From NCBI GenBank assembly GCA_020629845.1, contig JAHDCQ010000010.1, positions 1-42,297 of the forward strand: a stretch of DNA of 42,297 nt, given 5' to 3'. The stretch's first letter is position 1; every line of letters begins with the position of its first letter. The stretch comes from Saprospiraceae bacterium (lineage in GTDB: Bacteria; Bacteroidota; Bacteroidia; Chitinophagales; Saprospiraceae). Made by a program: the position numbers and the translations under genes. The notes below the pieces were generated by a model that made no database searches, was not told where the DNA came from, and was given only the letters and a program-made list of their open reading frames with translations. Of the stretch, positions 3,901-42,297 are shown in pieces.

Positions 3901-6339
3901 AGCTTGACTTTGACAACTGGTGGTACGGCACAAGTCAATTCTTTACTTGTTATGCCTACATCTTCATGTATTAAGCCTGCACTCTTGAATGGTTGTAGTT
4001 TACCAGATTGCGTATATTTAGAAATGGAAGTAAATGGTTCAGTAGTAGATGCTGGTACCATATTAGATGTTACATCGGATGCTGATTTAAATATTATTGA
4101 TTTTTTAGATCAAATTCCTACTTATGTTTTCAATTGCCAGACAGGGACATTCCCTGTTACAGTAAATCTATATGAGGTAACACCTTGCTTGCCAGGGGAT
4201 ATTAATACAGCCTTTGATGCTTCTACACAGGGGCGTGATTTATTGATTACGCATACTCGTGATATAATTGTTAATCCATCTCCTTCAAGCTCTATTTTCT
4301 TATCAGCTACAGGTATGGATGCAACGTCTTCTACTGCAACAGATGGTGAAATCAATTTATCCATAGCGAGCAGTTTTCCAGGGGAGACCTTTACAGTAAA
4401 CTATGCTCCAGTTGTAGGAGGAGTGGTAGGTGCTAGCGTTCTAGTTACAACAGTTGCTAGTGCGCCTAGTTATACCATTACTGGTTTATCGGCAGGTACA
4501 TATCAAGTTACAGTTACAGGCAGCAGTAGTTGTGGAACAGCTGTTGAGACAGTTACTGTTGGTTTCAGTACACCCTTACAATTGAAGTTCTTATGCCCAG
4601 ACCCAGTTGTGGAAGGTAATGTGATTAATGTGCAAGTCGCACCATGTTCTAATTTTACGAATTTGAATTCTGTTGATTTTGGTATTACATTGAGTGGACC
4701 AGCAGGTGCAAGTATCATTGACTTGCAAGCGACCAATGGTTTTGGTTCATCGACAGGAGGTTTCAATATAGGAGCTCATTATAGTCTATTATCTTCAACT
4801 CAGGCTGATATAGTATGGACAAGTGGTACTATGGAGAATCTGGTCAATAATCAGGCATTTATTACCATTTTGGTAAATGTTCCTCCAGGCTCAGCACCAG
4901 GCACATTATCTATTACTCTAGATGGTGGTCTGAATGGAGTGAGTGGTGCAACCCAGAATATGGGACTAACATCATCACCTGTGACATTAACATTTGATCC
5001 GACAACGATACCATGTAATTCAACAATTAATCCTACTTCTTCAGTTAGCTTAACTGCCAGTGGTAATATTACTTTTATGAGTACAGGTATTGGCGTATCA
5101 AATACGAACGTTAGTATTCAGAATATGACATCAGGTACTGTAAATAATGCTTCTACAGGAGTTTCGCCGTCCACAGGTTCGTATTCTTTCTCTACTATTG
5201 CCGTTGGTGATAATGTAAAGATTACACCTACAAAGACAAGTGCATCAACAGCAACTTATGTAGACGTAGTAGATGCCATTATTCTAGAACGTTACGCATC
5301 AGGGCCACTATTATTCCCTGCTAGTACGCATGGTATGATTCACCCGTCGCAAGCAGTAGCAGGTGATGTGAATTTTGATGGTGGAATTGATTTTGTGGAT
5401 GTGGTACAAATTCGTCAGAGTATCGTAGGTTTCCCTGCATTTCAGTATATCAAGACGGATTGGGTATTCTACCCAACTACAACAGCCTTTTCTGCAATGC
5501 CATTCTATACCTACACAGCACCACTCATGCAATGCTTTGGTGGTACATTGACAGCATCTAATCCTAACATTGATTTCATCGGTGTGAAGGTAGGTGATGT
5601 AAATGAAACGGCACAAACGGCTATTATGCCTGGTCCGAATCGTGTAGAAGTGCGTGGCAATTCTGCTTTCACTATCGAGGATAGAAGAATGGAGGTAGGA
5701 GAATTAGTAGAGCTACCAGTTTATGCTAAGAACTTCCATGACTTATTTGGTTATCAGACAAACATCTTATTTGATACCGATTATCTAGAATTCGTAGATG
5801 TAGCATTAGGTACAGCACTACCAGATATGGAAAGGAGAGATTTCGGTTTGGAGGCAGTAGCATCAGGTATCATTCCAGCTATCTGGGGTGGTTTGAACAA
5901 TGCTAACCTAGAAGATGGTGACTTACTATTTACCTTGAAGTTCAGAGCTACGAAATCAGCTAACAGCTTGAAAGGTTTGATTGATTTCAACAACTCAGAG
6001 CGTGTAGCATCTTTGGCATACAATGGAGCATTGGATGCTTATGCATTAGGTCTAGAATTGACTGCTGCGAAAGCAAGTGAATTCGTGCTTTATCCAAGCG
6101 CGCCAAATCCATTTGCGGAGGCTACAAAACTAAGCTTTGAACTACCAATAGCTAGTGATGTAGTGCTAAGCGTTACAGATTTGACAGGTAGAGTAATCTA
6201 CACAACGAAGTCAAATATGGATGCAGGCTATAACGAACTTTGGTTGAATGCAAGCCAATTGAATGCTAGTGGGGTATACTACTACCAAATCAAAGCAGGC
6301 AATTACGAAGTTTCGGACAGAGTGATTTTGATGGATTAA
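913..6339 (+). CDS. Large secreted T9SS type A protein with cohesin-like and dockerin-like modules
   Basis: The 1808-residue product starts with a signal peptide: a hydrophobic core within IPVVALFLWAQVGWSQ and cleavage near residue 37. A second ATG at 943 (Met11) would give a more typical 27-residue signal and may be the true start. Residues ~80-190 hold acidic Asp/Gly-rich stretches (DSDGDGDPTND) that look calcium-binding. The middle is cysteine-containing Ig/HYR-like sequence. Residues ~1126-1220 resemble SprB-type repeats. A cohesin-like module lies at ~1223-1360 and dockerin-like EF-hand halves at ~1450-1505 (key part GDVNFDGGIDFVDVVQIRQ). A second cohesin-like module at ~1586-1720 precedes a T9SS type A sorting domain from ~1722 (YPSAPNPFAEATKL to the end). 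Known for the family: such tails direct outer-membrane translocation and cell-surface attachment. The ligand or activity is unknown. No catalytic domain is recognisable. Confidence 0.85.
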   Translation: MFFKLKNDFPMKCLLPSIRYLIPVVALFLWAQVGWSQCGVSTTGTPQTTPIAAPTTIVNNVTFDDRYTNTPMAVPVGCTGCSILSEVLMDNDPCYDSDGDGDPTNDMITLDELIANGGFDLTTMMVIEDGTDATRMCPGAGPPGSGGTLAGCPGTPNAACDGDNDGDATNGNGVPDYTNPTGVNATDGDIPLANLPTSLGGVSTQFFDVDFYLDANCEAEVRLAGTGWMAATTCGCRYVNYYDQFGEFLGREDIVTGVGIAANNPVPFILDEVNKNATSSTAGYPKVGDYIFFQIDNGLACDANTANNTAACGALLRSSIFAFRIRNIFDNAPPVIKGTYNTSDDYCAPNIVTFDNAPTSIVGDPRNVRNDTELLITDNDPTAGRGGDGSYDAQIPNGSTVTPRTDKVRALLCRELLDEANDNGGVLPGDILPDPYMFNYIFNYGGTDQPNTPRLRGTGFLDGTNPSNDERGEIYTTAIYAGTTDVMQDAGMPSPAVVSTNSFQPFAPDGCGGAVTVGYSDAVDYTDRGNLYGRNSDAITGTEDVSDGVLIPIAAGFGLGGDGRFRDCYDVIRKWSATDEDGNTGMCDQTISVIDDYENEVCRTGGTPQVSQTGSPFFLTTAPTSGSDSITVFPQYFDQLMCASGASNIYQNTAGLTPAGASAPAPIPTLYSYTNPLGSTFPDVVAPNFAVGFNNQGAAGPSSTDNHYNFPVFTYAADENTYDCSQEAILDGFMPMPIDSCGIRPLVEIETLYDYGLDGDFGDIGPNIFISGSTPPPFYDKEAGIYYNNFSGGNQAQTTGDYVQYDDRENGFTPAQCQYYNYDILKRWVAEDECGFKSIAQRMYRIRDVEAPDVTMTDAIEVNGAGQILTSIRDTLISSVPGDTMNVKEFNAPAIITIPFTGCSPQLAVTTDYEDNCANVLYINTTYDIEEVNGATTTPIISGFPFTGSFTRTLEAGKTYKVILHSTDPCSNKTDVELTVITDPNGMTGCADTSPVSLTLTTGGTAQVNSLLVMPTSSCIKPALLNGCSLPDCVYLEMEVNGSVVDAGTILDVTSDADLNIIDFLDQIPTYVFNCQTGTFPVTVNLYEVTPCLPGDINTAFDASTQGRDLLITHTRDIIVNPSPSSSIFLSATGMDATSSTATDGEINLSIASSFPGETFTVNYAPVVGGVVGASVLVTTVASAPSYTITGLSAGTYQVTVTGSSSCGTAVETVTVGFSTPLQLKFLCPDPVVEGNVINVQVAPCSNFTNLNSVDFGITLSGPAGASIIDLQATNGFGSSTGGFNIGAHYSLLSSTQADIVWTSGTMENLVNNQAFITILVNVPPGSAPGTLSITLDGGLNGVSGATQNMGLTSSPVTLTFDPTTIPCNSTINPTSSVSLTASGNITFMSTGIGVSNTNVSIQNMTSGTVNNASTGVSPSTGSYSFSTIAVGDNVKITPTKTSASTATYVDVVDAIILERYASGPLLFPASTHGMIHPSQAVAGDVNFDGGIDFVDVVQIRQSIVGFPAFQYIKTDWVFYPTTTAFSAMPFYTYTAPLMQCFGGTLTASNPNIDFIGVKVGDVNETAQTAIMPGPNRVEVRGNSAFTIEDRRMEVGELVELPVYAKNFHDLFGYQTNILFDTDYLEFVDVALGTALPDMERRDFGLEAVASGIIPAIWGGLNNANLEDGDLLFTLKFRATKSANSLKGLIDFNNSERVASLAYNGALDAYALGLELTAAKASEFVLYPSAPNPFAEATKLSFELPIASDVVLSVTDLTGRVIYTTKSNMDAGYNELWLNASQLNASGVYYYQIKAGNYEVSDRVILMD

Positions 6340-10200: not shown

Positions 10201-13200
10201 TTGTTCGTTCGATGTAGTGGTAGAGCAAGTGCCACTTGCAGTAGAATGCCCTGATAATGTAATGGTATCAGCTAGTAGCACTGACTGTACTGCAATAGTG
10301 AATAGTATTAATGTAAATGTCACAGCAGGTACTGCTATGTCTACGAATTGGATAGCTACAGGTGCTACCAATACAAGTGGCACAGGCGATGCTTCTGGCA
10401 CTACTTTCAATTTAGGTACAACTACGGTGACTTATACCATCACGGATGAGTTCAATAATATGGTTTCTTGTAGTTTTGATGTAGTAGTTGGAGACGACGA
10501 AATGCCGTCTCTTCAATGCTCAAATGGAGTGACCGTACAGATTCCACAGACGCAAACTTCAACCGTAGTTACGGGTCTTAATGCAATTATTACAGATAAC
10601 TGTGGAATAGTTGATACCACTTACACCCTTACAGGTGCAACTACTGGTACAGGAAATGGTCTTGCATCGGGTTTAGCATTTAATGCTGGTACAACTACTG
10701 TTACCTACACCGTGAGTGATGGTACAAATACAGCAGAATGCTCTTTCGATGTAGTAGTAGAACAAGTTGCACTTATGTTGGAATGCCCAGCAGATGTAAC
10801 GGTATCCACAAGCACTACAGACTGTACAGCAGTAGTAGATAATATTGATATAAATGTAACGGCTGGCACTATAGCTACTGTTACTTATACTTCCACGGGA
10901 GCTACTTCGCTCAATGGAAATGGTGATGCTTCTTTACAAACCTTCAATGTAGGCACCACTACAGTTACGTACTTAGTAGGCGATGATTTTGGAAATACAG
11001 AGACTTGTAGTTTCAATGTCACTGTAGAAGATGATACACCACCAAGTTTAGTTTGCCGTGGAGATACCACACTAATTGTTCCCATTGGTACGAGTATCGC
11101 TGTAGTGAATGACCTAGGTATTATTAGTGCAAATGATAATTGCACCACTACTTCTGATATGATGCTTTCTTATGCACTTACAGGAGCAACCTCAGGTTCA
11201 GGTGCAGGCGATGCAAGTGGTCTAGTATTTAATGTCGGTTCCACGGTAGTTACCTATACGCTAACAGATGAAAATGATAACTCAGATAGTTGTGTATTCA
11301 ATGTGATTGTAAATAATCCTTCTTTGGAGATTACATGTCCTATGGATACTTCGGTAATAGCATCTTCAGCAACTACTTGTAGCGAATCAATAGATGGTTT
11401 ATTCCCAATCATTTTGCCAAGTCTTGATTCGGCAATGACGGTAACCTATAGTGCTTCAGGTGCTACTGTTACTACCTCTGACACAATGGGTATCAATGAC
11501 ATTTCAGGTACTGCCTTCAATACAGGCGTTACGAATGTCACCTACACCGTAGTCAGTAATATGGGGGATGTCGCGGCTTGTAATTTTAGTGTGACGGTTT
11601 TAGATACCTTCCCACCAAGCTTTAGCTGTCCAGCAGACATAACTGTTTTCTCTACGAATGCAGATACCACAGCAGTAGTGACGGGCATTGATCTACAAGA
11701 TTTGAATGATTGCGATCCTACTACAGGCGTGAGTTATACGCTTTCAGGTGCTACTAATGCAACTGGTGTAGGAGATGCAAGCGGACAAACATTTCAAGCA
11801 GATACGACCGAAGTTACTTACTTCGTGATGGATAATAATGGCAACCGAGATAGCTGTAGTTTCTTGGTAGTGGTAGAGCCAGCACCGATTACTCTGACTT
11901 GCCCTACAGATATGACAGTAGCGGTTAATACAGATGATTGTACTGCGGTATTGAGTGGTTTGGCTGCAATAGTTGCAGATACGACTACGCTAGGAAGTGT
12001 TACCTACACTGGAATGGGAGCTACTACATTTAGTTCTGATACAGTTGGTATCAATGATGTTTCTAACGAAGCATTCAATATGGGTACAACCAATGTAGTA
12101 TATACCGTAACAGATACCTTAGGCAATATGGCAAGCTGTAGCTTTGATATAACGGTGCAAGATAGCAGCGATTTATTCCTTATTTGCCCAAGCGATGTTA
12201 CAGTATTTGTAGCAATGACGGATACAACAGCAGTTGTAGATGGAATCGGCTTAGTAGATTATGGCTATGATTGCTTACCAAATGATAATATTGCTGTTAC
12301 CTATATTATTGATGGCGTAACGGATACGCTTGATGCAAGCGGTACTACTTTTGACTTGGGTGGTACGGGTGTCACCTACTTTGTGGCAGATGAGTTAGGT
12401 AATGTAGAAATATGCTCATTCACCGTTACAGTAGCGCAACGCTCACCATTAGATATAACATGCCCTAGAGATACTACCGTTTCTACTGAAGTAGATTTGT
12501 GTAGTGCTACAGTAAATGATATTGCTGTGGGTATTTCAGATATAGGACTAGTAGATTCCATTACCTACGTACTAAGTGGCACAGTAATGGATACCATAGC
12601 AACAGATACGCTACTTGATTTTTCAGGTACAATGTTCCCTATTGGTACTACAAGCATTAGCTATACTATTTCAGATACCTTAGGTTATGAAGTGAGTTGT
12701 ATTTTTGACGTGACTGTAGAAGACAATCAAGACCCAGACTTGATGTGTCCAGCAGATATTACGGTATTAGCTCCCGAAGGAGATACTACAGTTATTATCA
12801 ATAATATTGACATAGCATCTTTAAGTGACAATTGCAATAGTTTGAGTGAACTAAGCATTAGCTATGAATTGACTGGTGCAACTACAGCTTCAGGAAATGG
12901 TTCAGCTAGTGGTAATCGCTTTAATGTCGGTACTACAACTGTAACCTATACCGTACTTGATGCAGGAGGAAATTCTATCACTTGTTCCTTTGATGTAGAC
13001 GTAGTAGAAAGCGGTGAATTAGCTATCGGCTGTCCACCTGATATGGTAGTATCAGCAGCTACTACAAGCTGTGCTAGAATAGTAGATGATATAGCGGTGA
13101 CTATTTTATCACCTGATTCTACAATCCAATCTATCGTATATGGCTTAAGAGGCGCAACCGTTATGGACTCTCCAACTACTGGCTTCAATGATGCGAGTGG

Positions 13201-16200
13201 CGAGAATTTCAATATCGGCTTAACAACCGTTACCTATATCGTGACGGATACACTTAATCGTATTGCGAGTTGTTCCTTCACCATAGAAGTAGAAGACAAC
13301 TCCGGGCCACGTATAGATTGTCCATCGGATTTAGTTGTCAATATTCCATTCACGGATAGCACTGCGGTAGTAAATAATATTGGACTAGAATTATTGGACG
13401 ATAATTGCGACTTCAATGCCTCTGCTACTTATGAATTGACAGGAGCAACAGAAGGTACAGGCAATGACGATGCGAGTGGCACTGTATTTAATATCGGCAC
13501 TACGGTCGTTACCTATACCGCCACGGATACCTTAGGTAATACTTCCTCTTGTTTCTTCGATGTAGAAGTAGGTCAATTCGGTGTAATGCTAGAATGTCCT
13601 GACAACATTGTGGTACAGTCTGATACTACAGCATGTGGTACAGTTATAGATAGCATTAGTGCAATGGTTTCGCCTTTAGCATCCGTACAGACATTGTCTT
13701 ATGAGCTAAGTGGCGCAACGACTTTCCAATCGCGTCAAGATACCATTCTAGATGCAAGTGGCGAGTTCTTCAATGTCGGTACTACCAGAGTGACGTATAC
13801 CGTAAATGATACCTTAGACTGCTCATTTAATGTGACAGTACAGGATGACTTAGCACCAATTTTCGTGAATTGTCCAGATAGTTTATTCTTCGGAATGGAC
13901 GTAGACCAATGTTTTGCTACGGTTCGATGGACGGTTCCAGAAATACTAGAGGGGTGCGACTTTGTAATGGTACCTAATGTGGCACCAGGTACAGAGATAG
14001 AGCTAGAAATGATGTCTGGTGACACTACTATCACCTATACAGCAACAGATGTAAACGGTAATACTTCTTCGTGCAGCTTCTTTATTAGAGTGCGAGATGA
14101 TTTATTGCCTAATCATATTTTCTGTCCAGAGCAACAAGAGGACTTTACCATTATGCAGTCCGATTCAATCTGTGGCGCAATTGTAACATGGAACGAACCA
14201 CAAACTTTTGATAATTGTGGTATCGTAAGCACCATGCAAACGCATGAACCAGGCGATGTCTTCCCATTCGGAACAACGACTGTTACCTATACTGCCTTCG
14301 ATGAAGAAGGAAATTCAGGAACATGTAGCTTCGACGTAATGGTAGTGGATTCTTTCCCACCACGTCTGATGAATTGCCCGATGGACACCACTATCGTAGT
14401 GGTAGAGCCAGATAGCACAGGAGTAGCTACTTGGACACCTCCTACAATAGATGACTCTTGCGGCGATGTGGTACTCACAAGCAACTTCATGCCTGGGGAT
14501 ACCTTCCCAATGGGTATGACAGAGGTGATATACGTAGCGAATGATACTATCAGCATGGCGACAGATACTTGTTCGTTTACTATCACAGTACAAGTAGATG
14601 AATTTGTAGAAGTGGATACTATTCCACCTGCTTTCTTAGATTGTCCAGATGATATAAATGTGGCATTTGATGAAGGTCAATGCTTCGCTACGGTATCTTG
14701 GACAGAACCAACTGCGATAGACAACGGACGTATAGACAGCTTATTTGCATCACATATGCCAGGCGATACCTTCATAGTGGGTACTACAGAGATTCTTTAC
14801 ATTGCTATTGATTCAGTAGGCTTGAGAGATACTTGTGCATTCAATGTGGTTGTAGATGGACCACAGAATAGCGTATTACTATGCCCAGGTAATGTAACCG
14901 TTATCGCGCCTCTAGCAGCATGTGGTAGTGTAGTAGATTGGACACCACCAACTATTGACCGCCCATGTTCAGAAGCACCTATTTCTATCGTGAGTAATTT
15001 CATGCCGGGATCATTATTCCCAGTTGGTGCAACGGAGGTCATCTATATTGCTTCCGATACCATAGGCTATGCCGATACCTGTAGCTTTACTATTACGGTA
15101 CTCGATCAAGAGTTGCCGATGTTCACAGGCTGTCCAGAAGATATGATTCTGTCCGTTGAGCCAGGCGCGTGTGAAGCGAGCCTTGATTGGACAGTACCAA
15201 CGGTAGCAGATAACTGTGGAATAGCAGAATTTGTGGCTTCGCACGAACCACCATTCTCCTTCCCAGTAGGTGAAACAACGATTACATATACAGCAACAGA
15301 CATTTCAGGCAATACGAATAACTGCCAGTTCATTGTAACGGTACTCGACGACGCTGCACCTGCCTTTAATTCCTGTCCTGAAATAGTGACAGTAAGAGCA
15401 GATGGAACCATTATCAGCGACCCAAGTGGAGTGATTACAAATATTGGTTCAGTAGATTGTTCTAGCGTACAATTGAGCTTTACCACACCAACAGCAACTG
15501 ATGTTTGTGGCTCATTCAATGTAGAACAAACCGATAATACAGGTTTATCAAGTGGTTCTAGCTTCTTGCCAGGTACGTCTACTTTGATATTCACAGCAAG
15601 TGATGAATCAAATAATACGGCTACTTGCGAAATGGTGATTGTGGTAGAAGCGGTAGAAACAGGTGCCGTAAATATTACTGTAGATAATCCAGTAGTATGT
15701 GCAGGTGGTGATGTAGAGTTAGTAGCAGAGGACATAGGTATACCAGGCACTACTTATGAATGGATGATGCCAGGTAATGCGCCTCCATTTTCTGGAGCTA
15801 CTTTGAGCATATTCTCTATTACTGCTGATCAAGCTGGTACATATACAGTTACTGCTACTGCACCAACAGGCTGTACATTCACAAATAGTACCGTAATTGA
15901 TGTGCAAGTAGCACCAATGGTGAGCGCAGGACACAATGATCAAGACATACTATGTGGCGCAGGAGCAGATTTAATGCTTACAGCAGCTACATTGGATGAA
16001 ATAACAAGTTGGTCATGGGCAGGACCGAATAACTTTAGTTCGGACATGCAAAATCCAGTAATACCGAATGCATCAGCTACGGATTCTGGCAACTATACTG
16101 TGACCGCTACTACGGCAGCAGGCTGCTCTAACACAGCAATGACAACCGTTACTGTTCGAGAACAACCAACTATGCCAACGCTTATGCTAACAGGCGGTAG

Positions 16201-31939: not shown

Positions 31940-34900
31940 ATGAAAAACACACGTTTCTTTCAATTGCTCTACCTCATTAGCCTATTTCTATTTTCTAGTA
32001 TAACTAGTAACTATGCCCAAGCAGAACTCAATGACAATGGCGCTCTTAATGATGTGGGTCTTGATGGTTTCTTAAATGTATGGGAAGGCGCATATCAAGA
32101 ATATAAAATACCGACCAATCCAGAATTTGATTACGTCCGCTTCTATCTGAAAGGCGGAGATGGCGGAACGGCTACTGTGGGATGTAACGCCGCCCAAGGT
32201 GGAGATGGAGCAACTGTTGAACTTAGTATCAAAATTGGTAATGCCCCAGATGAAATTCCTGCTGGAACAATACTCCGCTTTGTAGTTGGAAAAAGAGGAC
32301 AAGATCATACTTCAAGTGTTGAAGCTTATTCAGGTGGTGGCGGTGGTACAGGAATCATATGGATGAGTTCACCCATTGGTAACATTCCTTTAGCGGTGGC
32401 CGGTGGTGGTGGCGGTGCAAAGCGACGAGAACTTGATGGTAAAAATGGACAAGGTGGTTGAGCAGGTACTAGTGGAGGAGCTGGAGAAGGCGGAAGCAGT
32501 GGAAGTGGTGGTGTGGACGGCGGACATGGCGGAAATGGTACTGCTGGAGGATCTGGAGGTGGATATTATGACGGATTTATAGAAGGGGGTAATGCTGGTG
32601 GCGAAGGACAAGATGGCGTTAGTTGCTGGGGTGGTTTTAAAGATTCGAGTGGTGGAAATGGCGGATATGGTTGTGGTGGTGGTGGTGCAGGCTGGAACGG
32701 GGGCGGTGGTACATCGGATAGTGGTGGCGGTGGTGGTGGTGGCTATTCAGGTGGTGGTGGTGCAGGTTGTTGGCTCAGTAGTTGTAGTGCTGGCGGCGGC
32801 GGCAGTTATGTAGATGATACCTACCCCTATGATGAAGTCATCACTGCAGGTGGAGCAACAGCTCCTTCATCCTATGGATATGTACGTTATCAATTTTTCT
32901 GTTCTGCTCGTTTTGCTGCTACACCGAGTATTATACAAAGTGCTTTTTGTTATGGTACAGAAAGTATCCAGTTTGCTGTAGAAAACCCTAAATGGTGGTG
33001 CGATGACATAAGTTATAAAAGAGTAGATAATAATGAAGAGAATACGACAGGTATTTTTGAGAATTTACAACTAGGTCAAAGCTACGGTTTTGAACTCTTT
33101 TATGCGGGTGAAGTGGTAGATACTTATACTCACAATGTGACTAGTGATGTTGATACAGAAGATCCGTCTGTACTCTGCCTCAACAACCATTTTGTTTTTG
33201 ATTTAAATGATAATCTTAATCCTACCATAACACTTGGTGACATTGGCGTAAGTGCTTCTGATGCTTGTGGTATTGCTGCAACTACAATAATAGGCTATGG
33301 CAATTCTCGTACTTTTAGCTGCGATGATTTGGGAAGTAACACACTTAGCGTTCGAGCAACAGACCATAGAGGGAACTCAGCAACTTGTTCGGTCAATGTA
33401 GAAATCACAGGCGGCTATCCCGACGACCCTCCACCTATCGTGCTGGACTTGGACATTTTCTTGGATGCCAATGGCGAAGCCACTTTGAGTGAAAGTGATT
33501 TGCTTTTCTCTGCCAATCTTGAGACGATTTGCTATACCCGCGCGGAGGCAGAAGCAAATTATAGCATCTCTGCTGCCTATCAAAACCTCGATTGCAGTGA
33601 TGTCGGAACATTTAGCTTTTTCTTAGATGAAGCAGACACTAACTTTCCTGATGCAGAACAGACTATTACCGTTATAGACCCTATTCCAATCATTGCCTCG
33701 GTAGCAAATGTAAGCATCAGTTTGGATGCAAGCGGCGTAGGTACTTTAAGCATGGGCGACTTGACATTCACCGTCAGCGACAACTGCTACACCGATGCCG
33801 AAATTATCGCCATATATAGTTTGCCTGCCGAATTTAGTATGTTCGATTGTATGGACATTGGTACATTTCCTGTCACTCTGGATAGAAGCGATACCAATTT
33901 TCCGAGCGTCACCTTCCAAGTGACGGTGGAGTCCTCCGCGCTAAGTTTCCCTGCCGTCAATACCGATTTTTGCAGTAATAGCAGCTTCGATTTGACCAGC
34001 TTGGAAGATGATATTACTACTGCAAGTGGTACATTTACCTACACCCAAGCCATCGAACGGCTTTATATTCCAAACTATAGGGATAACAATGTGAGCGTTG
34101 TAGATTTAAACACCAATAGCATTATTCAAACCATAGCTGTGGGCAGTGGTCCCTGGGGCGTGGCAGTTCGTCCTGATGGAAAGAAAGTCTATATTATCAA
34201 TCGTGATAGTCATGATGTCAATGTCATAGATGTAGCAAGCAATACCGTAGAAGCAACGATTACCGTAGATCAATTTCCGCTTGGAGCTGCCTTCAATTCG
34301 GATGGCAGTCTACTTTATGTCACCAATATAGTAGGGAATAATATAAGTGTGATTAATACCACTACCAATACAGTAGTCAATACTATAAATCTGGGAAGTG
34401 CCCCTTGGGGTATTGCGCTAAGTCCTGATGATTCCAAAATCTATGTCGCTAGCGGTGCTGGACTCCTAGTCGTCAATGCTTCTACAGGAGTCGTTATGAC
34501 TACCATTCCTTTAGAAGTCAATCCTAAAGATGTTGCCATTAGTGCAGATGGCACAAAAGTCTATGTCAGTTGTGAAAGAGGAATTAATCCCAATCACTTG
34601 AAAGGAGTACTACACATCATTGACATCAGTACCGATGTAATGCTACAAACCCTCTATCTGGATCACAGAAGCCCTTATACACTTGCCGTGCATCCTACAG
34701 GAGATGTCTATGCGGGACATGAGAGTTTTGGTGGTGGCATCATCAGTAGCACCAGCCCTAGCAATGTCATCACCTACTATCCCATAGAAGCGGGTGTTTC
34801 AAATAATTTCAGAGGCATTGATTTAAATGAGGATGCTTCTAGGCTCTATCTTTCTGATTCTGCCGAGGACAAAGTCTTTATTTATAACACCCTCACCAAT

Positions 34901-35464
34901 ACTGTAGTCACAAGTATAGCCGTGGGAGATGCGCCCATTAGTACAGGGAAGTTCTATGTCAAAACTACGCTGGACATTACTTCACCCAGTAATTATACGC
35001 CCAGCCTAGGGGCTATCGTCAATGTTGCTTTTGATGGGGGCGGAGAATGTGCTGCTACTACTAGCATTACTTTCGATAATGAAATCAGTTGCGTCGAACT
35101 AGCCGTGAAAGTTTTCTTACAAGGCCCTTATGATGGAGGCAGCAGCATGATGGCAGATGACCTCAATAACAATAACTTATTACCAAGCTCTGTGGGGGGC
35201 TATAGCATGTTGGCAAGTGCCACTGCCAACACTGGCACGGAAGCCATTGTAGATTGGGTAACACTAGAACTGCGCGATGCGAGTGACAACACGGTGGTCC
35301 TCGCCAGCCGCCCTGCACTCCTCCAAGCCGATGGTGATGTGGTGGATATGGATGGAACTTCGCCTGTAACTTTTACGGATTTGAATGTGAGTTCGGCTTA
35401 TGTTGTCGTGCGGCATCGCAATCATCTTGGAGTAATGACCGCGACACCTATTTCTTTTGATTGA
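31940..35464 (+). pseudogene. Secreted glycine-rich / beta-propeller protein with in-frame stop (cassette copy 2)
   Basis: This paralogue of the 1191-residue protein has the same plan over 1174 codons: signal peptide (LISLFLFSSITSNYAQ), glycine-rich region, HYR/Ig-like modules, YVTN-type beta-propeller, and the LQGPY ... RHRNHLGVM tail. A single TGA at 32459-32461 interrupts the glycine-rich region within NGQGG-stop-AGTSGG. Copy 1 has CGA (Arg) at this point, so one C-to-T change explains it. The rest of the frame is open for another 1000 codons and well conserved, so the mutation is recent, or a sequencing error, or the downstream part is re-initiated. TGA ends copy 1 and other genes here, so stop reassignment is unlikely. 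Confidence 0.85.
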
Positions 35465-35592: not shown

Positions 35593-38319
35593 TTATTCGA
35601 TGAGTATAAAGCCCGCCCAATTAAGATTGTCGGTACTTTGGCGCATTTGAGCTTTTGCCTTGCGGAAGGCGGTTGGTGCATCTTGTTTTTCGATGAGTAG
35701 ATTTTCATAAAATGCTATCATCAATTCTTTAGTTGCTTCATCATTTACCTTCCACAAACTGACAACGACATGCTCTACACCGGCGAGTTTGAAGGCACTT
35801 TGTAAACCGAGTACGCCTTCGGTGTCGTGTATATCGCCAAGCCCTGTTTCGCAGGCAGATAAAACGACTAATTTGATGTCACTTAAATCTAAATGACTGA
35901 CCTCGTAGGCGGTTAGGATGCCGTCATTATCAGAACGGGAGATGTACTCTTTTGATGTCCATGTCTCATTAGCACCCGAAAGGGCGATTATGGAGCGTTG
36001 AAGGGGGTTGCCTGTTGTGTATAAGCGGTGTTCTATATTGGTTGCTGTGGTATCTAAATGAGCGAGGTATATTCCGTGAGTGGCAAAATGTATAATATCA
36101 GGTGAGGATTTTTCTGCGTGATATTTGAGTGTATCTTCTGTGGCATTACTTCCGGTCATTTTAATGGATGTTCCTCCTTCCTCTTTATTGATTTGATATA
36201 TTTCATCAATTTCATCTCTGGTTTTTGATAAAGGGTCAAGTCCCGCACGTAATTGTGCAATAGCAGTTGTATGTGTCGGTGGATTATAAGCAATATCTCC
36301 AAAAAGAAGCAGGTCTTTGTATTTTTTGCTGTCAAATATTTCACTCAACCAACTCAATATTTCACTTAACCAGTTGGTTTGCTTTCGTTGTGCAAAATCA
36401 CGCATGGTCGTATAGTAATGAAACTCAAATTGGCTGGCAAGATAGCTTCCGTTTTCATTTTGTAAGGCTTCAAAGTCTATTTGGTGCAATAAACCCGAAG
36501 GCGAAAGATGTATCGCTTCTACATTTTCCAAATGAGATTCAAGAGGTTGCCATACTTTTTGATAAAGTGCTTGTAAGTTTTCATCGTTTCCGATATAATT
36601 GGGTCTTCCGGTTATTTTGTTGGTTTGCAAAAGCGATTCTATGGATTCTTGGTCGGTAATACGGATAAACTGCGGCGCAGGCATTCCCTCGTGTGTCAGC
36701 ATGGCATAATAGAGCCACGTACTATCGCTTTCTTCATAAAAGTGTATAAAGTCAAGCATGACTTCGTTGGATTTGAGTTGGCTTTGAACATCTTTCCATT
36801 TTACAGATGTTTTGTATAGTTTTTCTCTTAGTGTTTTATTTGCTAAGAGTTGTTGTGTTAGACCTTCCTGTTGGTTACGTAAATCTGCTAGATTCCAGTT
36901 CTTTTCATTGAGTTCTTCCGCTGTCATCAATTCTGCTTGTGAGATATTTCCGTTGAGGGTATTTAATTCATTGTATAGATTATTTAATTGTTCATCATTT
37001 ATATCATTGATTAACTTACGGACAGATATGGAATAGTCCAATGCAAGTGATTTGGTATTGAGCAAGAGATGTGCGGCTAATTTTTTGGTGTTGTCATCAC
37101 CATATTTTGCAGCAAATGAATAGAAATTATTATGAACATCTTTAAAGGTTTTTGTGTATTCCAGACGCTGGTTGTCAGGTAGGAAAAGGTAGGTATCGTT
37201 TAAGCGTTTTAAGTTCGATTTGATAACGGTATCCCAGATATAAAGTGCTGAATCGCGCTTGTTTTGGGCTTGATATATAATGGCTAGATTGATGTAAGAT
37301 TTTATTGCATCAGGATGGTTTTCTCCCAACTTATCTATTCTAATTTTTAAGGATTTTTTATTTAGTTTTATGGCTTTGTCATATTTTTTTAATTTATACA
37401 TAATCGAAGCCATATTATAATATGCTTCTGCAATATAGAAGTGATATTCTCCAAATTGATCAGCCCAAACTCTTTTAGCTTCTTTATTCATTTCTAATGC
37501 TTTATCATATTCTCCTTCAGCTTCATAGGCTAAAGCCATGTTAATATAAGTAATTGGTACTTCAAAATACTTTTCCCCTGATTCATCTATAAAAATTTTG
37601 AGTGCTTTTTTATAAAGATTTAAGGCTTTGTTATATTCTCCTAAATCATGGTAAGATTCCCCCATGTTGTTATAACAAGTTGCTATATTAGGGTGATTTC
37701 CCCCAAATTTACTACTCCAAACTTTAATGGCTTTTCTGTATAATTCCAACGATTTTTTAATACTACCTAGTCTTGAATGGATGATAGCTATATTATTATG
37801 TGAATAATACAGGTAATGATGATTTTCTCCAAGTTGAATCCTCCAAATTTTAAATGCTTTCTCGTATAGTTTCAATGCTTTTTCGTAATTACCCATTAAA
37901 TCATGGATAATGCCCATATTGTTATATGAATTACCTACTTGATAATGGTCTTTGCCTAATTTATCTATCCTGATTCTTAATGACTTTTTGTGTAATTTCA
38001 ACGCCTCTTCAAAGTTGCCTAATATTCCATATATATAAGCTAAGTCATGATAAATAGCAGCTACTTCAGGGTGATTTTCGTTTAACTTATAAATCTTGAT
38101 TTCTATTGCTTCCCAATGGAGTTTCAGTGATTTGTCATAATTACCTAACTTTTCATGCTGCTGCCCCATTTTACAAAGTGTCTCTGCAATATCTAAACTA
38201 TCCACCTGCATCCGCAAAGTATCCTCCAAAGCCAAAAGAATAGAATCGCTTGGTGTTGATGCAGGCAGTATTCCGATATAGTAAAATGAAAGAAAAAAAC
38301 AGGCGATAAAATTTTTCAT
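35593..38319 (-). CDS. TPR-CHAT domain protein (caspase-like peptidase fold)
   Basis: The product has 908 residues. The N-terminus is hydrophobic (FIACFFLSFYYIGIL), probably a signal peptide, so the protein may act in the periplasm. About eight TPRs of the 42-residue kinesin-light-chain type follow (~55-370; e.g. YNNMGIIHDLMGNYEKALKL). A linker (~370-640) leads to a C-terminal CHAT domain with the expected catalytic pair: His748 in HFATHGIY and Cys823 in LSACETGLG, then the closing GVLGLQSAFKLAGVEHVVVS and SLWKVND blocks. CHAT proteins are caspase-like; characterised members are proteases such as separase and Craspase TPR-CHAT. Both catalytic residues are present, so activity is plausible. 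It is divergent from a sigma/anti-sigma pair, a context that suggests a signalling role. Substrate unknown. Confidence 0.88.
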   Translation of the reverse strand: MKNFIACFFLSFYYIGILPASTPSDSILLALEDTLRMQVDSLDIAETLCKMGQQHEKLGNYDKSLKLHWEAIEIKIYKLNENHPEVAAIYHDLAYIYGILGNFEEALKLHKKSLRIRIDKLGKDHYQVGNSYNNMGIIHDLMGNYEKALKLYEKAFKIWRIQLGENHHYLYYSHNNIAIIHSRLGSIKKSLELYRKAIKVWSSKFGGNHPNIATCYNNMGESYHDLGEYNKALNLYKKALKIFIDESGEKYFEVPITYINMALAYEAEGEYDKALEMNKEAKRVWADQFGEYHFYIAEAYYNMASIMYKLKKYDKAIKLNKKSLKIRIDKLGENHPDAIKSYINLAIIYQAQNKRDSALYIWDTVIKSNLKRLNDTYLFLPDNQRLEYTKTFKDVHNNFYSFAAKYGDDNTKKLAAHLLLNTKSLALDYSISVRKLINDINDEQLNNLYNELNTLNGNISQAELMTAEELNEKNWNLADLRNQQEGLTQQLLANKTLREKLYKTSVKWKDVQSQLKSNEVMLDFIHFYEESDSTWLYYAMLTHEGMPAPQFIRITDQESIESLLQTNKITGRPNYIGNDENLQALYQKVWQPLESHLENVEAIHLSPSGLLHQIDFEALQNENGSYLASQFEFHYYTTMRDFAQRKQTNWLSEILSWLSEIFDSKKYKDLLLFGDIAYNPPTHTTAIAQLRAGLDPLSKTRDEIDEIYQINKEEGGTSIKMTGSNATEDTLKYHAEKSSPDIIHFATHGIYLAHLDTTATNIEHRLYTTGNPLQRSIIALSGANETWTSKEYISRSDNDGILTAYEVSHLDLSDIKLVVLSACETGLGDIHDTEGVLGLQSAFKLAGVEHVVVSLWKVNDEATKELMIAFYENLLIEKQDAPTAFRKAKAQMRQSTDNLNWAGFILIE

Positions 38320-38788
38320 GGCATGTAAAAAAGTTGGTTAAGGAAATATGTACGTAAGTACTTAAACGATATTTAATATAAATTAAGATATTGAATTTTA
38401 GGGTTTTGGTATAAGGCAAGTGATAAAGTGAAAATGTTATTTTCTTTTGAATTAATTTGCTGATAAACAGCCACTTGCATGCATGCTTTGCTTTGTGTTT
38501 TACACTACAAGGTACAACAAAAAAGGTATATGTTAGTAGTTTTGGAGCAGTTTAGGATAGATTGAGATAATATAAATGTGTAAAATGCACTCTAACAGAG
38601 TCGAAGAATAGAGATTATTTATCAGTTGAAATACACATATTTTTTTCGTTCCTAAGTGATAAAATTTTTTTTTAAAAAACGGTAACAAAATATAAATTCT
38701 TACGACCTTATTGATGAGCAACATGTTATTTGCTATTTTATGTTCCACACAAATAAAGAGGGGTTATGCCTTTAGACCTAAAAATTTT
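38320..38788. other. Divergent intergenic region between the CHAT gene and the sigma factor gene
   Basis: This ~470-base region (391 bases if the sigma gene starts at 38711) is very AT-rich, with a perfect 10-bp palindrome GCATGCATGC at 38477-38486 and an A/T homopolymer block near 38665-38685. It should contain promoters for both directions. I could not identify a sigma-factor consensus with confidence, and see no gene in it. Confidence 0.45.
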
Positions 38789-39679
38789 ATGCTAAAATAC
38801 AGTAAAATAGAAATCATACATGGCATCATCAATTTTGATGAAGATACATACGAGTACCTTGATACCACATACAGGGAAAAGGTGGTACAACATGTACTCA
38901 ACAATTCCGGTATACAGGAAGAAGGAGAGAAATTGTATCAGTATGTTATTTTTGAAATATACCAGAATATAAAACGGGGAGCATATCGTGCCAACAGAAG
39001 AGGAACATTTGAAGGATATTTTTGGACAGTTGCCAAAAGAAGGTGGAACAATCTGCGAAAAGAAAAACAGAATTTTGAGTACAGTAAGACAGAAATCATA
39101 CGTGGTATCATCAACGAAGACGGGCAAATATATAAATATCTTGATGCTAAATACAGAAGAAAACTTATCAAGTATGTCTGTGATAATTCTGGTATTCGGG
39201 AAGATGCTGAAGAATTATATCAGGATGTGATTACAGAAATATACCGGAATATAAAACGAGGGAGATACGACGCAGACGGACGCGGAACATTCAAAGGATA
39301 TTTTTGGACAATTGCTAAAAGAAAATGGATAGATAAGCTGCGAAAACGAAAACTGAAATTTGATGAATTGGACGCATCCAATGAAGCAACACCCTATATT
39401 ACCAAAGCAGAAGAAGAAGCGGAATATCTTGAGAAAAGACGCATACTTGCAATAAGAAAGTATCTGAAACAACTTTCACCAGACGAACGAGATTATATCC
39501 GCTTATATTATTTTGCAAAAAAATCTACCCAAGCAATAGCAGACTACTTTGGAACGACTTGTGGAAATGTCCGAAAAAAACTTAGCAAAATCAGAGGAAA
39601 ACTCCGAAAAATGATTGCAAATGATCCCGAGTTCGGAACATCACTTTTTTTAATATCCACCATAAATAGTGTAAAATGA
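38789..39679 (+). CDS. ECF-like sigma-70 family factor with tandemly duplicated region 2
   Basis: The start at 38789 (MLKYSK) is chosen because homology between the internal repeats begins there; an in-frame ATG at 38711 would add 26 unconvincing residues. The product (about 296 residues) is much longer than a usual ECF sigma factor (about 160-200). The reason is a ~94-residue region-2-like unit that occurs twice, at 38798-39079 and 39080-39362. Unit 2 keeps the canonical region 2.2 pattern (REDAEELYQDVITEIY) and GTFKGYFWTIAKRKWIDKLR. Unit 1 has EEGEKLYQYVIFEIY, losing acidic positions usually used for core RNA polymerase contact. A region-4 HTH follows (LSPDERDYIRLYYF, STQAIADYFGTTCGNVRKKL). 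The stop overlaps the next gene's ATG (ATGA). The partner gene is its likely anti-sigma. Confidence 0.82.
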   Translation: MLKYSKIEIIHGIINFDEDTYEYLDTTYREKVVQHVLNNSGIQEEGEKLYQYVIFEIYQNIKRGAYRANRRGTFEGYFWTVAKRRWNNLRKEKQNFEYSKTEIIRGIINEDGQIYKYLDAKYRRKLIKYVCDNSGIREDAEELYQDVITEIYRNIKRGRYDADGRGTFKGYFWTIAKRKWIDKLRKRKLKFDELDASNEATPYITKAEEEAEYLEKRRILAIRKYLKQLSPDERDYIRLYYFAKKSTQAIADYFGTTCGNVRKKLSKIRGKLRKMIANDPEFGTSLFLISTINSVK

Positions 39680-40689
39680 ATATGTCAAATGACCAGCAAA
39701 ACCTGATTGATGCTTATTTGAACAATGAACTTACTGAAGAAATGAGGCAACGTTTTGAGAAAATGTTGGCAACCGACAAGGTATTCGAAGAAGAATTTAT
39801 TTTTCAGCAAAGTTTGGCAGAAACTGCTGCTTTAGATTCTGTAAGAGAAGCTATGGAACAAGTAAGAATGGAAAACTTGCTGGATGATACAACCATACTG
39901 CCCGAATTTAAAATGGTACAAAACACTATCAAAACAGCAAAAGCAAAGAACATAAAACGCAAACAACAGAATGTAGTAAAAATATGGTTGATTAGAGGAG
40001 CGGTTGCTGCCTGCATATTGCTTACAGGCTTATGGGTAGGCTGGGCAAATCACTTGGAAAATGATGTGAATAAGGAACTTGCAGAGGTTTTTGATGTAGC
40101 TGCTATACAAGACTCTGATATAAATGAGGAGATTAAGAGGTCAGGGCTTCGTTCCATGGAACCAACCAAGATTGCTGACAGAGAGGCTATTATCAAAGAA
40201 GAATTGGATAAAATAGAAATAGCTCTCAGCGAAAAACACTCCGGCGAAGCACTCGAAATGATTAATAATTTGCAGACACAGTTTGAATACGAATCACAGA
40301 GACTTGATAATTACAAAAAAGAAATTATTGAACATAAATTAAGTGAAATACAGACGGCACATCGTGAAAAACGTTTTGATGAAGCTATTGAATTACTTAA
40401 AAATTTACAAAGTCAACTTCCGCATGGTACTGCCCAACCCGCACTCAAATACTATGAAGCAAACTTGTATGCACAGACGGCAAACTATGACGAGAGCATC
40501 AAAATACTAAGGCGATTGACCCGCCAAAAATCTGACATCCAACATGATGCACGTTGGCTCTTAGGACTTTTATATTTGAAAACAAACGAGAAAGCAAAAG
40601 CGAAAAAAGAATTTGAAACATTAACTCAACAATCAGAGCAATACAAAGACAAAGCCCTACAGAAACTGAGAAAACATTTTATTTTATAA
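39676..40689 (+). CDS. Anti-sigma-factor-like membrane protein with C-terminal TPR region
   Basis: The 337-residue product begins four bases inside the sigma gene (ATGA), so translation is coupled. An alternative ATG lies two codons downstream. Residues ~8-50 (LIDAYLNNELTEEMRQRFEK) match the short N-terminal segment typical of Bacteroidota anti-sigma proteins; no zinc-binding His/Cys motif is visible. A basic stretch (KNIKRKQQNVVK) precedes a single membrane helix at ~104-122 (IRGAVAACILLTGLWVGWA). The remaining periplasmic part is helical and TPR-like, with two similar units (LSEKHSGEALEMINNLQ and HREKRFDEAIELLKNLQ) and a C-terminal TPR. It probably holds the sigma factor at the membrane and senses a periplasmic signal. 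The TPR of the divergent CHAT protein makes a physical partnership possible but unproven. Confidence 0.78.
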   Translation: MNMSNDQQNLIDAYLNNELTEEMRQRFEKMLATDKVFEEEFIFQQSLAETAALDSVREAMEQVRMENLLDDTTILPEFKMVQNTIKTAKAKNIKRKQQNVVKIWLIRGAVAACILLTGLWVGWANHLENDVNKELAEVFDVAAIQDSDINEEIKRSGLRSMEPTKIADREAIIKEELDKIEIALSEKHSGEALEMINNLQTQFEYESQRLDNYKKEIIEHKLSEIQTAHREKRFDEAIELLKNLQSQLPHGTAQPALKYYEANLYAQTANYDESIKILRRLTRQKSDIQHDARWLLGLLYLKTNEKAKAKKEFETLTQQSEQYKDKALQKLRKHFIL

Positions 40690-40943
40690 AAGGCTATTCA
40701 GCGAGTTCTGTAACCATATTCGTTATCCGTTAAACGCCACTTCTCTTTTTAATGTATTGATAATCAATTAATTAAATGGTTTTTTGATAAGCCATCATGG
40801 GAGAAGTATGTCCGCAAGTAAGCGATTGGAAACAATTCAAAAAGCAATATAAACAAGCACAGTCAGCCGCTACGGGGCTGGTTGGGCGACAAAAAAATAA
40901 TGATTTTTCTAAACGATTATTAAACATTTTTAAAACATTGATT

Positions 40944-41453
40944 ATGAAAAAATTAAAAATTAAATTAAGGTTTTTCAGCCTATTGGTGATACTAACCGTT
41001 TCAGTCTTTCTCACTTCTTGTGAACAAGATTTGATATCAGCGAATGAACAATTCAGTACAGACATTGTAGAAGGTCGTTATCTTTTACCTAAGGGACTTG
41101 AACTGGAAGCTAATGAATTAGAAGTGTTTCTTGAGAATGCAACTAAAAGTGACCTTGATAATATGGCCGAAAGTGCAAATATTGCCCATTACTTAATTGA
41201 AATTGGTAAGTTTCGCGAAGTATATAACTCTATAGATGATAACCAATTATATACAGATATTGACTTGTCCTTATATTTGAACAATAAGGAGTTGAAGGAA
41301 TTTGCTGCTTTTTCTTATAGAGAATCAATTGAAAGTAGATATTGGGTGCAATGTTATTGGTCGAATTGCACCTCTACAATCTCGTCATTCCAATATGGTC
41401 GTTGTTGTTATGTGGAGTTTCCACTATGTTATGTAACTGCACGGGGATGCTAA
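40944..41453 (+). CDS. Small cysteine-rich lipoprotein, paralogue 1
   Basis: The start at 40944 (MKKLKIKLRFF) gives a 169-residue lipoprotein with a textbook lipobox, LTSC, at the end of the signal. An open frame extends 49 codons upstream to 40797, but the signal start here is far more convincing. The mature part is acidic and helical. The last ~37 residues hold six cysteines in the order C-x4-C-x11-CC-x6-C-x6-C, ending on the final Cys. The 31 bases before and including the start (TTTTTAAAACATTGATTATG) are shared with the next gene. No known domain is recognised. The gap from the anti-sigma gene is 254 bases, with no convincing terminator; it might belong to the same regulon. Upstream, CAGCC / GGCTG at about 40864-40880 is a weak stem. 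Confidence 0.72.
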   Translation: MKKLKIKLRFFSLLVILTVSVFLTSCEQDLISANEQFSTDIVEGRYLLPKGLELEANELEVFLENATKSDLDNMAESANIAHYLIEIGKFREVYNSIDDNQLYTDIDLSLYLNNKELKEFAAFSYRESIESRYWVQCYWSNCTSTISSFQYGRCCYVEFPLCYVTARGC

Positions 41454-41491
41454 ATCCACTCATATCATTAAGTATTTTTAAAACATTGATT

Positions 41492-41998
41492 ATGAAAAAT
41501 TTAAAAATCAAATTAGGGCTTTTCAGCCTTTTGGCGATACTCGCCACTTCGGTCTTTTTGACTTCTTGTGAGCAGGAAACTCCGATAGATAGCTTTCAAG
41601 AAATAGCACTAAATGAATCATTGTTAGGTAAGCAATTAACACCTCCTAATGGATATAAAGATGAAGTTGCAGTTCAATATATCATCAATGCAACTGATTC
41701 GGAAATTCAAAAAATGATTGAAAATTACAGGATAACTAATTTTCTTTTCCTAGAAGGTAAGTTTGCTGAAGTAGCAAGTAATTTAGCATTTGGGGAACAT
41801 ATATCTGACTTTGATTTAAATGAATATTTGACTATACAACAACTAGAGTCACTTATGAATTATATACCTTCTAAAATTAGTGAAAGAGGTTGTCTATATG
41901 GTTGTTATAGGGGGCTTGAGTTTGAGTCATGCTGTAGTGGTGTCATTCATCCTTTGTATGGTCAGCAATGTTCTTTTTCATGGATAGGAAGATGTTGA
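41492..41998 (+). CDS. Small cysteine-rich lipoprotein, paralogue 2
   Basis: The start at 41492 (MKNLKIKLGLF) gives a 168-residue lipoprotein with an LTSC lipobox and the same CEQ after lipidation as paralogue 1. The signal-peptide DNA and upstream leader are nearly identical to paralogue 1. The mature part is much more diverged but alignable (NATDSEIQKM versus NATKSDLDNM; GKFAEV versus GKFREV). The tail again has six cysteines in the order C-x3-C-x8-CC-x11-C-x7-C and ends on Cys. An open frame extends upstream to 41342 but overlaps paralogue 1 and is not credible. Function unknown: secreted ligand, inhibitor or structural surface protein are all possible. Confidence 0.72.
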   Translation: MKNLKIKLGLFSLLAILATSVFLTSCEQETPIDSFQEIALNESLLGKQLTPPNGYKDEVAVQYIINATDSEIQKMIENYRITNFLFLEGKFAEVASNLAFGEHISDFDLNEYLTIQQLESLMNYIPSKISERGCLYGCYRGLEFESCCSGVIHPLYGQQCSFSWIGRC

Positions 41999-42092: not shown

Positions 42093-42297
42093 CTATATCA
42101 ATTCAAAATATTCAGGCGGAATATAGCCAGTAAGCCAAACACCATTTTTAGAAAGAAAAAAACTCAAAGCCTGCCTCATACATCTTACCGGATTGAACAA
42201 TAAGAACGGCGAGTTTGCCATATGCGCCTAGAATTTTCAAGGTTATTTGGATAAGACTAAGCGTTTCGTCATTTTTCCTCTAGCATTTTCAACTGTA
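42093..42297 (-). pseudogene. kptA: C-terminal remnant of RNA 2'-phosphotransferase (Tpt1/KptA family)
   Basis: Read on the minus strand, the last codons give KNGVWLTGYIPPEYFELI and a TAG stop at 42093-42095, matching the KptA C-terminal ENGVWLT...PxxY block. Just upstream, in another frame, lies GAYGKLAVLIVQSGKMYEAG, matching the family's GxRHGKPVVLxVxAxxM segment. A run of seven A on the plus strand (42156-42162) marks the shift: one base fewer would join EFF to LSKNGVWL. A further break near 42241-42252 separates RLVLSK (family: VxLS) from the GAYGK segment. At least two frame breaks mean a decayed gene, or sequence errors. KptA would transfer a tRNA splice-junction 2'-phosphate to NAD. 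The gene continues past the window edge. Confidence 0.68.

Follow-up and report, generated by a model that had tools for sequence, protein, structure and literature searches.

A TPR-CHAT protein linked to an ECF sigma/anti-sigma pair in a Saprospiraceae bacterium and its possible role in envelope signalling

Introduction

Why should the gene of a caspase-like protein stand beside the genes of a sigma factor and its putative inhibitor? To our knowledge, few bacterial CHAT proteins have a known job. The question is raised here by a stretch of 42,297 nucleotides (the window) from a Saprospiraceae bacterium (assembly GCA_020629845.1, contig JAHDCQ010000010.1). In this stretch the gene of a TPR-CHAT protein is divergent from a pair encoding a sigma factor of the extracytoplasmic function (ECF) class and a putative transmembrane (TM) anti-sigma factor, after which come two paralogous genes for Cys-rich lipoproteins. 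An earlier annotation of the letters (the sequence-only reading) had described a TPR-CHAT protein with an intact His748/Cys823 pair, divergent from overlapping genes for a sigma and a TPR-bearing anti-sigma, and this anatomy is confirmed (Table 1).

The linkage of CHAT genes with sigma/anti-sigma pairs is real, recurrent and co-inherited. The explanation preferred here, tentatively and with a probability of about 0.42, is an envelope-signalling module resembling a split DdvA or Craspase, in which a periplasmic TPR-CHAT acts on the periplasmic domain of the anti-sigma. No description of such a pairing in Bacteroidota was found in the open-licence literature, the broader part of which was covered by the titles and the starts of abstracts of the papers listed.

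Conserved linkage and co-inheritance

CHAT loci were drawn from a ranked match list, as part samples of the window's own genome (G000) and seven more genomes of the family. A sigma gene lies within 5 kb of 9/14 CHAT genes in G000, 8/12 in G006, 5/7 in G017, 11/17 in G019 and 0/12 in G024 (loci L095-L105). In G000 the profile did not call the five weaker CHATs, and several contigs end near the gene, so that misses there are not firm. Across the eight genomes (79 CHATs), 37 sigma midpoints were seen within 3 kb of a CHAT, against 9.3 expected from the sigma density at 4-9 kb (Poisson P ~6e-12, a rough value as a sigma near two CHATs is counted twice). A second set, comprising 65 loci of named genomes found by CHAT similarity and including some contigs of G006, G131 and G132, gave a sigma density of 0.061 per kb up to 3 kb from CHAT, as against 0.020 per kb at 4-9 kb (75 CHATs). 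Linked cases in named genomes include Lewinella cohaerens DSM 23179 (L158), with a compact operon of sigma, anti-sigma and CHAT, Pontibacter lucknowensis (L170) and a metagenome-assembled genome of Candidatus Azobacteroides (L168). The sequence-only reading had staked its proposal on linkage being conserved in other genomes, and sigma genes are enriched near CHAT there. Several CHATs of G024 are flanked by open reading frames (ORFs) which, by our own reading of their starts, begin with signal-like segments.

The arrangement of the genes was compared over 60 modules, selected for a CHAT within 5 kb; in 57 of them the gene that comes next on the 3′ side of the anti-sigma could be read. In 28/57 this gene is CHAT, on the same strand in 14 modules and convergent in 14, and 19 of these 28 leave a gap of at most 30 bases. 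A divergent CHAT, as in the window, is also common: 21 modules have it on the opposite strand at the 5′ side, at -3 to 4708 bases; this number includes L225 (-3), which is really an overlapping convergent pair. The CHATs of L160 and L161 are 99% identical and both are counted among the modules.

The trees of the partners agree. Over 55 modules, the CHAT and anti-sigma trees correlate with r 0.441, while shuffling within genomes gave a null mean of 0.200 and a maximum of 0.346 in 2000 shuffles. The CHAT tree correlates with that of the anti-sigma part after the TM segment at r 0.310 (p 0.0005) and, less clearly, with that of the short part before it at r 0.252 (p 0.07). The sigma tree, too, matches that of CHAT (r 0.331, p 0.0005). 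As these modules occur several to a genome and are inherited as units, they offer many natural pairs for tests of specificity.

The TPR-CHAT protein

The window protein matches TPR_12 (5e-75) and, after the repeats, CHAT (PF12770, 4.8e-60). The candidate catalytic residues stand within the motifs HFATHG (His748) and LSACETG (Cys823). Both are retained in 55/55 sigma-linked CHATs of the alignment. In another alignment of 23 CHATs, L173, L174 and L175 have both residues replaced (HLATP; LSAT or LSGT); these three have no sigma within 5 kb, and several intact CHATs of the same set likewise have none.

The protein begins with a hydrophobic segment, a feature of 49/55 linked and 31/40 unlinked CHATs. 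A C-terminal TM segment, absent from the window protein, occurs in 26/55 linked and 30/40 unlinked CHATs, and is followed by a net positive tail in 26/26 and 27/30 of these, respectively. This combination fits a periplasmic domain anchored at the inner membrane. For both CHAT and anti-sigma the topology is taken from hydropathy counts, which are not signal-peptide predictions. On this basis the periplasmic side is predicted for both proteins, in line with the sequence-only reading, according to which the two carry TPRs and probably face the periplasm.

The AlphaFold2 model of the protein has a predicted local distance difference test score (pLDDT) of 84. In a Foldseek search with this model, ranks 1 and 3 were taken by DdvA and rank 2 by Csx29. 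The match to Csx29 is the other full-length structural match (Z 24.9 over 620 residues, root-mean-square deviation 7.8), although by Z it stands below many TPR-only proteins.

The sigma factor and the putative anti-sigma

The sigma ORF (38711-39679, + strand) contains two Sigma70_r2 stretches and one region 4. It scores 90.2 bits against TIGR02937 (sigma70-ECF; cut-off 42.9) and carries the regions 2 and 4 of the ECF class. The likely start is the ATG at 38789, giving 296 aa, because a promoter-like site spans 38683-38705. Region 2 is duplicated in tandem (38798-39047 and 39080-39329, 71% DNA identity at a spacing of 282), resulting in an r2-r2-r4 sigma; it is single-copy in the four G006 relatives.

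The sigma stop overlaps the start of the next gene in an ATGA at 39676-39679. The product of this gene (39676-40689) is probably an anti-sigma, a role suggested by its place and architecture: it lies directly downstream of the sigma and has a single hydrophobic segment, which begins near residue 98 and is flanked by KR-rich sequence on the N-side, as well as TPRs in the C-terminal half. The cytoplasmic part has weak domain matches to zf-HC2 (E 0.03) and to the anti-sigma model NF052375 (E 9e-4, below cut-off). Among the anti-sigmas of linked modules, 58/60 have a TM segment after residue 35. At L001 (11033-12394, contig C222 of the same genome), a single ORF of 453 aa is sigma-like and anti-sigma-like and adjoins a CHAT, and may be a sigma-anti-sigma fusion.

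Sister modules and promoter-like sites

Eight modules with CHAT are window-like, defined by a match to sigma profile A4 at E 1e-70 or better: the window itself, four in G006 (L070, L072, L073 and L088), and L309, L310 and L311 (one each in G132, G131 and G207). In all but that of the window, the gene immediately behind the anti-sigma is identified by a profile match as trypsin-PDZ (DegS-like). Four of these proteins were aligned, and Pfam Trypsin_2 and PDZ domains were shown on that of L070, the nearest NCBIfam models of which are Do/HtrA and DegS, under their cut-offs. A similar gene, judged by its ending, is present at L312, a 4.5-kb contig with no CHAT. A search of the window's genome, a draft judged 91% complete, gave no member of the class; four weaker HtrA matches are located on other contigs (best 5.8e-17).

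The sequence TAAC-N14-TACGA precedes the sigma gene in the window, L088, L072 and L147, and also the divergent CHAT gene of L072 (8079, - strand). The TAAC/TACGA pattern with a spacing of 13-15 matches elsewhere too, for example at window position 8037. With a matrix built on the four sigma sites, the held-out CHAT site of L072 scores 12.8 and a site before CHAT in L070 (9957, + strand), with one mismatch, scores 11.8. Scores of this size are not rare, since the window has six other places with values of 11.1 to 16.3. By our own count of the listed matches, promoter-like sites were seen in 2 of seven CHAT upstream regions, with 0.06 expected (P 0.002); no site scoring at least 11 was found before the CHAT genes of the window, L088, L073, L147 or L149. 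These sites support autoregulation of the sigma, with control of CHAT in some sister modules.

Comparison with known systems

The closest precedent is DdvA (PDB 8rot, 8rw5; titled a transmembrane anti-sigma factor). According to the part of PMC4374960 that deals with it, DdvA inhibits DdvS, an ECF sigma of Myxococcus, and as of 2015 nothing was known of what triggers it. DdvA resembles the window pair in being an inhibitor of an ECF sigma with a TM segment and a CHAT domain that has His and Cys; unlike this single chain, the window has CHAT and anti-sigma as two genes. Profile A11, built from 42 diverse CHAT domains, matches the DdvA chain 8rot_B at residues 836-976 (E 1.4e-10) with the His and Cys motifs kept; the narrower A10, from CHAT domains of close relatives, missed it. 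As the Foldseek TM-score of DdvA is low (0.26) and the 50 VIA rows do not include it, the presence of CHAT in DdvA is argued from the sequence profile. The solved DdvA with a CHAT domain of its own means that a CHAT/anti-sigma link was partly known already. A fused CHAT and anti-sigma was also sought among the collected proteins, and 0/155 CHAT ORFs have an anti-sigma-like N-terminus.

Craspase, of type III-E CRISPR, is RNA-guided, and its Csx30 is not known to be a membrane protein. The TPR-CHAT protease Csx29 cleaves Csx30, the inhibitor of CASP-sigma, as described in the portion of PMC10028731 on this system. A TPR-CHAT protein together with a sigma inhibitor, and the same fold over the 620 aligned residues, are shared with the window; unlike Craspase, the window CHAT has a putative export signal and the anti-sigma a TM segment. 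PADLOC matched no CRISPR model among the 17 window proteins (up to position 42297), and the CRISPR effector and Csx30 of a Craspase locus were not found there. As regards an anti-phage function, the same search returned only TPR matches and one weak ZorB/MotB-type match to an OmpA-domain protein.

DegS and RseA are the textbook case of a site-1 protease and its substrate. This case is also cited in PMC10028731. The sigmaE-RseA-DegS system has in common with the window an ECF sigma and a one-TM anti-sigma, and a trypsin-PDZ gene adjoins in sister modules. It differs in that the linked candidate in the window is caspase-like, the anti-sigma bears TPRs and a DegS-like gene was not found in the window's genome. 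For ECF54, the relevant part of the review PMC8999054 reports CHAT and subtilase genes in the conserved context and proposes, on the strength of these neighbours, proteolytic control, with no anti-sigma. The window likewise has a CHAT gene near an ECF sigma; unlike ECF54, it has an anti-sigma-like gene (weak domain match) that overlaps the sigma.

Proposed mechanism and rival explanations

In the preferred explanation, the cytoplasmic N-terminal domain of the anti-sigma would hold the ECF sigma at the inner membrane, with its TPR domain exposed in the periplasm. The exported TPR-CHAT would be on the same side, where its repeats may bind a signal, upon which it would contact and act on the periplasmic part of the anti-sigma, most likely through a cut like that of a site-1 protease. 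The sigma would be set free by general proteolysis at a later stage, and its putative regulon would comprise the operon in which it lies as well as, in some sister modules, CHAT. If TPR-CHAT does gate a membrane anti-sigma, Craspase and DdvA would be cases of a wider rule, in which sigma inhibitors are controlled on either side of the inner membrane. Cutting of the anti-sigma by CHAT appears the most likely single mechanism, with a role of CHAT as an output of the sigma as its main rival. The sequence-only reading had likewise considered CHAT as the protease of the anti-sigma, or else as a parallel effector. Its interpretation is strengthened by the linkage, the co-inheritance, the predicted periplasmic side and the precedents of DdvA and Craspase, and weakened by a DegS-like rival protease, by the exception of G024 and by the loose tie of the lipoproteins.

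Several observations weigh against cleavage of the anti-sigma by CHAT. The catalytic pair is equally kept in unlinked CHATs (40/40), so its retention is no argument for the anti-sigma as the substrate. The agreement of the CHAT tree with the sigma tree as well points to inheritance as a unit rather than contact with the anti-sigma. From the G024 count it follows that CHAT occurs without sigma too. In the reverse search, starting from the best sigma matches outside G000 and G006, a CHAT lay within 5 kb in 8/20 loci, some on short contigs; at five of the other twelve loci (L317, L318, L322, L324 and L325) there is an operon that is similar but of a different kind, in which CHAT was not called. 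The DegS-like gene in seven of the eight window-like modules means that CHAT is not the sole candidate protease, and the sites before CHAT in L072 and L070 would also fit CHAT as an output of the sigma.

The output explanation is the strongest competitor, though on balance unlikely. In it, the sigma would turn on CHAT, whose role as an exported protease would be to process proteins of the surface or of invaders, and the anti-sigma would be relieved by other means. It gains from the exact site in L072 and the one-mismatch site in L070, from several CHATs of G006 and G024 that lack a sigma in their vicinity and whose neighbours are ORFs with signal-like starts, and from G024 as a whole. It is harder to reconcile with the five CHAT upstream regions, that of the window included, in which no site reached 11 (scores that are not rare in any case), with the frequent position of CHAT directly 3′ of the anti-sigma, and with DdvA, where CHAT is joined to the anti-sigma itself. 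DdvA can also be read in another way: being a single chain, its CHAT can act in cis, and the window pair could be a two-chain version in which TPR-CHAT is a sensor or scaffold that gates the anti-sigma by binding without cutting. The TPR domains on both partners and the agreement between the trees of the CHAT N-terminal part and the anti-sigma periplasmic part (r 0.300, p 0.0005) speak for gating of this kind, which is nonetheless rather improbable given the His and Cys kept in every linked CHAT. The lack of a sigma within 5 kb of the three CHATs that lost these residues also counts against it, although several intact ones share this lack.

It is quite improbable, too, that the DegS-like trypsin-PDZ protein is the site-1 protease while CHAT has another role, the window's genome having lost the gene and relying on a housekeeping HtrA or on CHAT. 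Such an assignment would follow the textbook precedent and suits a gene that comes immediately behind the anti-sigma, as this one does in L070, L072, L073, L088, L309, L310 and L311, but the class was not found in the window's draft genome, and in other module types the slot is taken by CHAT or by an unrelated gene. That the genes are neighbours by chance, in genomes rich in both families, is barely credible. Both families are multi-copy, with 28 region-2 matches in G000 and 34 in G006, and 15 and 14 strong CHAT matches, respectively (up to 23 in one relative; the total of CHAT matches in the window's genome is 19). Chance is rejected by the four-fold local excess of sigma genes, 37 against 9.3 within 3 kb, and does not accord with the agreement of the trees or the recurrence in named genomes of other Bacteroidota.

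Features of the locus

Table 1. Features of the TPR-CHAT and sigma/anti-sigma locus, in window positions.
Feature	Position	Strand	Remarks
TPR-CHAT caspase-like protein	35593..38319	-	908 aa; His748/Cys823; signal-like N-terminal segment; ends WAGFILIE
ECF-type promoter-like site TAAC-N14-TACGA, upstream of sigma	38683..38705	+	Same layout in L088, L072, L147
ECF sigma factor, region 2 twice in tandem, then region 4	38789..39679	+	ORF from 38711 possible
Putative transmembrane anti-sigma: cytoplasmic N-terminal domain, one TM, periplasmic TPRs	39676..40689	+	337 aa
Leader preceding lipoprotein 1	40745..40935	+	Part CATGGGAGARGTATG kept at the same place in two G006 modules
Lipoprotein 1	40944..41453	+	169 aa; helical domain, six-Cys tail
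Lipoprotein 2, paralogue of lipoprotein 1	41492..41998	+	168 aa; six-Cys tail

Proteins ending near NHLGVM are encoded close to CHAT genes of the window's own genome (window 32513-35464, L005, L011 and L018).

Lipoproteins and their leader

The lipoprotein genes start at 40944 and 41492, rather than at the starts of the longer ORFs, and both products have LTSC as their lipobox and a tail with six Cys. Over leader and signal peptide the two are alike, with 84% DNA identity in 114 bases, and their tails differ; the family follows the same pattern, with a conserved signal and helical domain and a variable Cys-rich tail. In the structural model, residues ~61-120 are fairly well modelled and the Cys tail (126-169) is below pLDDT 50.

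Matches at E 0.001 were found in 10/199 genomes of the family sample, several of them hardly extending beyond the signal peptide. Six genomes (G000, G006, G131, G132, G144 and G208) have matches of near full length, and four of these also belong to the six in which a window-like sigma was matched at E 1e-40 (P 3e-6, with genomes of the same genus not independent). Lipoprotein 1 had no match among plasmid sequences. Of 18 further lipoprotein loci, some on short contigs, 17 have no called CHAT or sigma nearby, and only L337 combines lipoproteins, sigma pair and CHAT. Two results speak against the suggestion of the sequence-only reading that the lipoproteins may be regulon outputs or signals: the sigma promoter gave 0 strict matches and 1 loose match (0.27 expected) in 34 regions upstream of lipoprotein genes, and nearly all further loci stand apart from CHAT and sigma. 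The lipoproteins are a dispersed family, tied to the module loosely at best.

Among the lipoproteins passing the coverage filter, 16/23 have an Arg at most six residues ahead of the first tail Cys, with 19% expected (P 1.5e-7, ignoring relatedness). A circuit with two substrates may be imagined, as a long shot, in which CHAT, with a DegS-like partner in the sister modules, cuts the anti-sigma to start sigma release, and proteases of the same class detach the Cys-rich mini-domains of the lipoproteins at the conserved Arg. If so, the sigma switch would control the release of membrane-tethered, fast-changing Cys-rich peptides, a surface-peptide system with a caspase-like maturation enzyme.

The conserved leader before the lipoprotein genes may form a short hairpin (window 40745-40935; L070). 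No Rfam model matched it over threshold, and the two sub-threshold matches are both elsewhere in the stretch. Subtilase genes follow lipoprotein genes at L070, at 3791-5455 (by Pfam) and 13077-14732 (by likeness), and at L341 (by its start).

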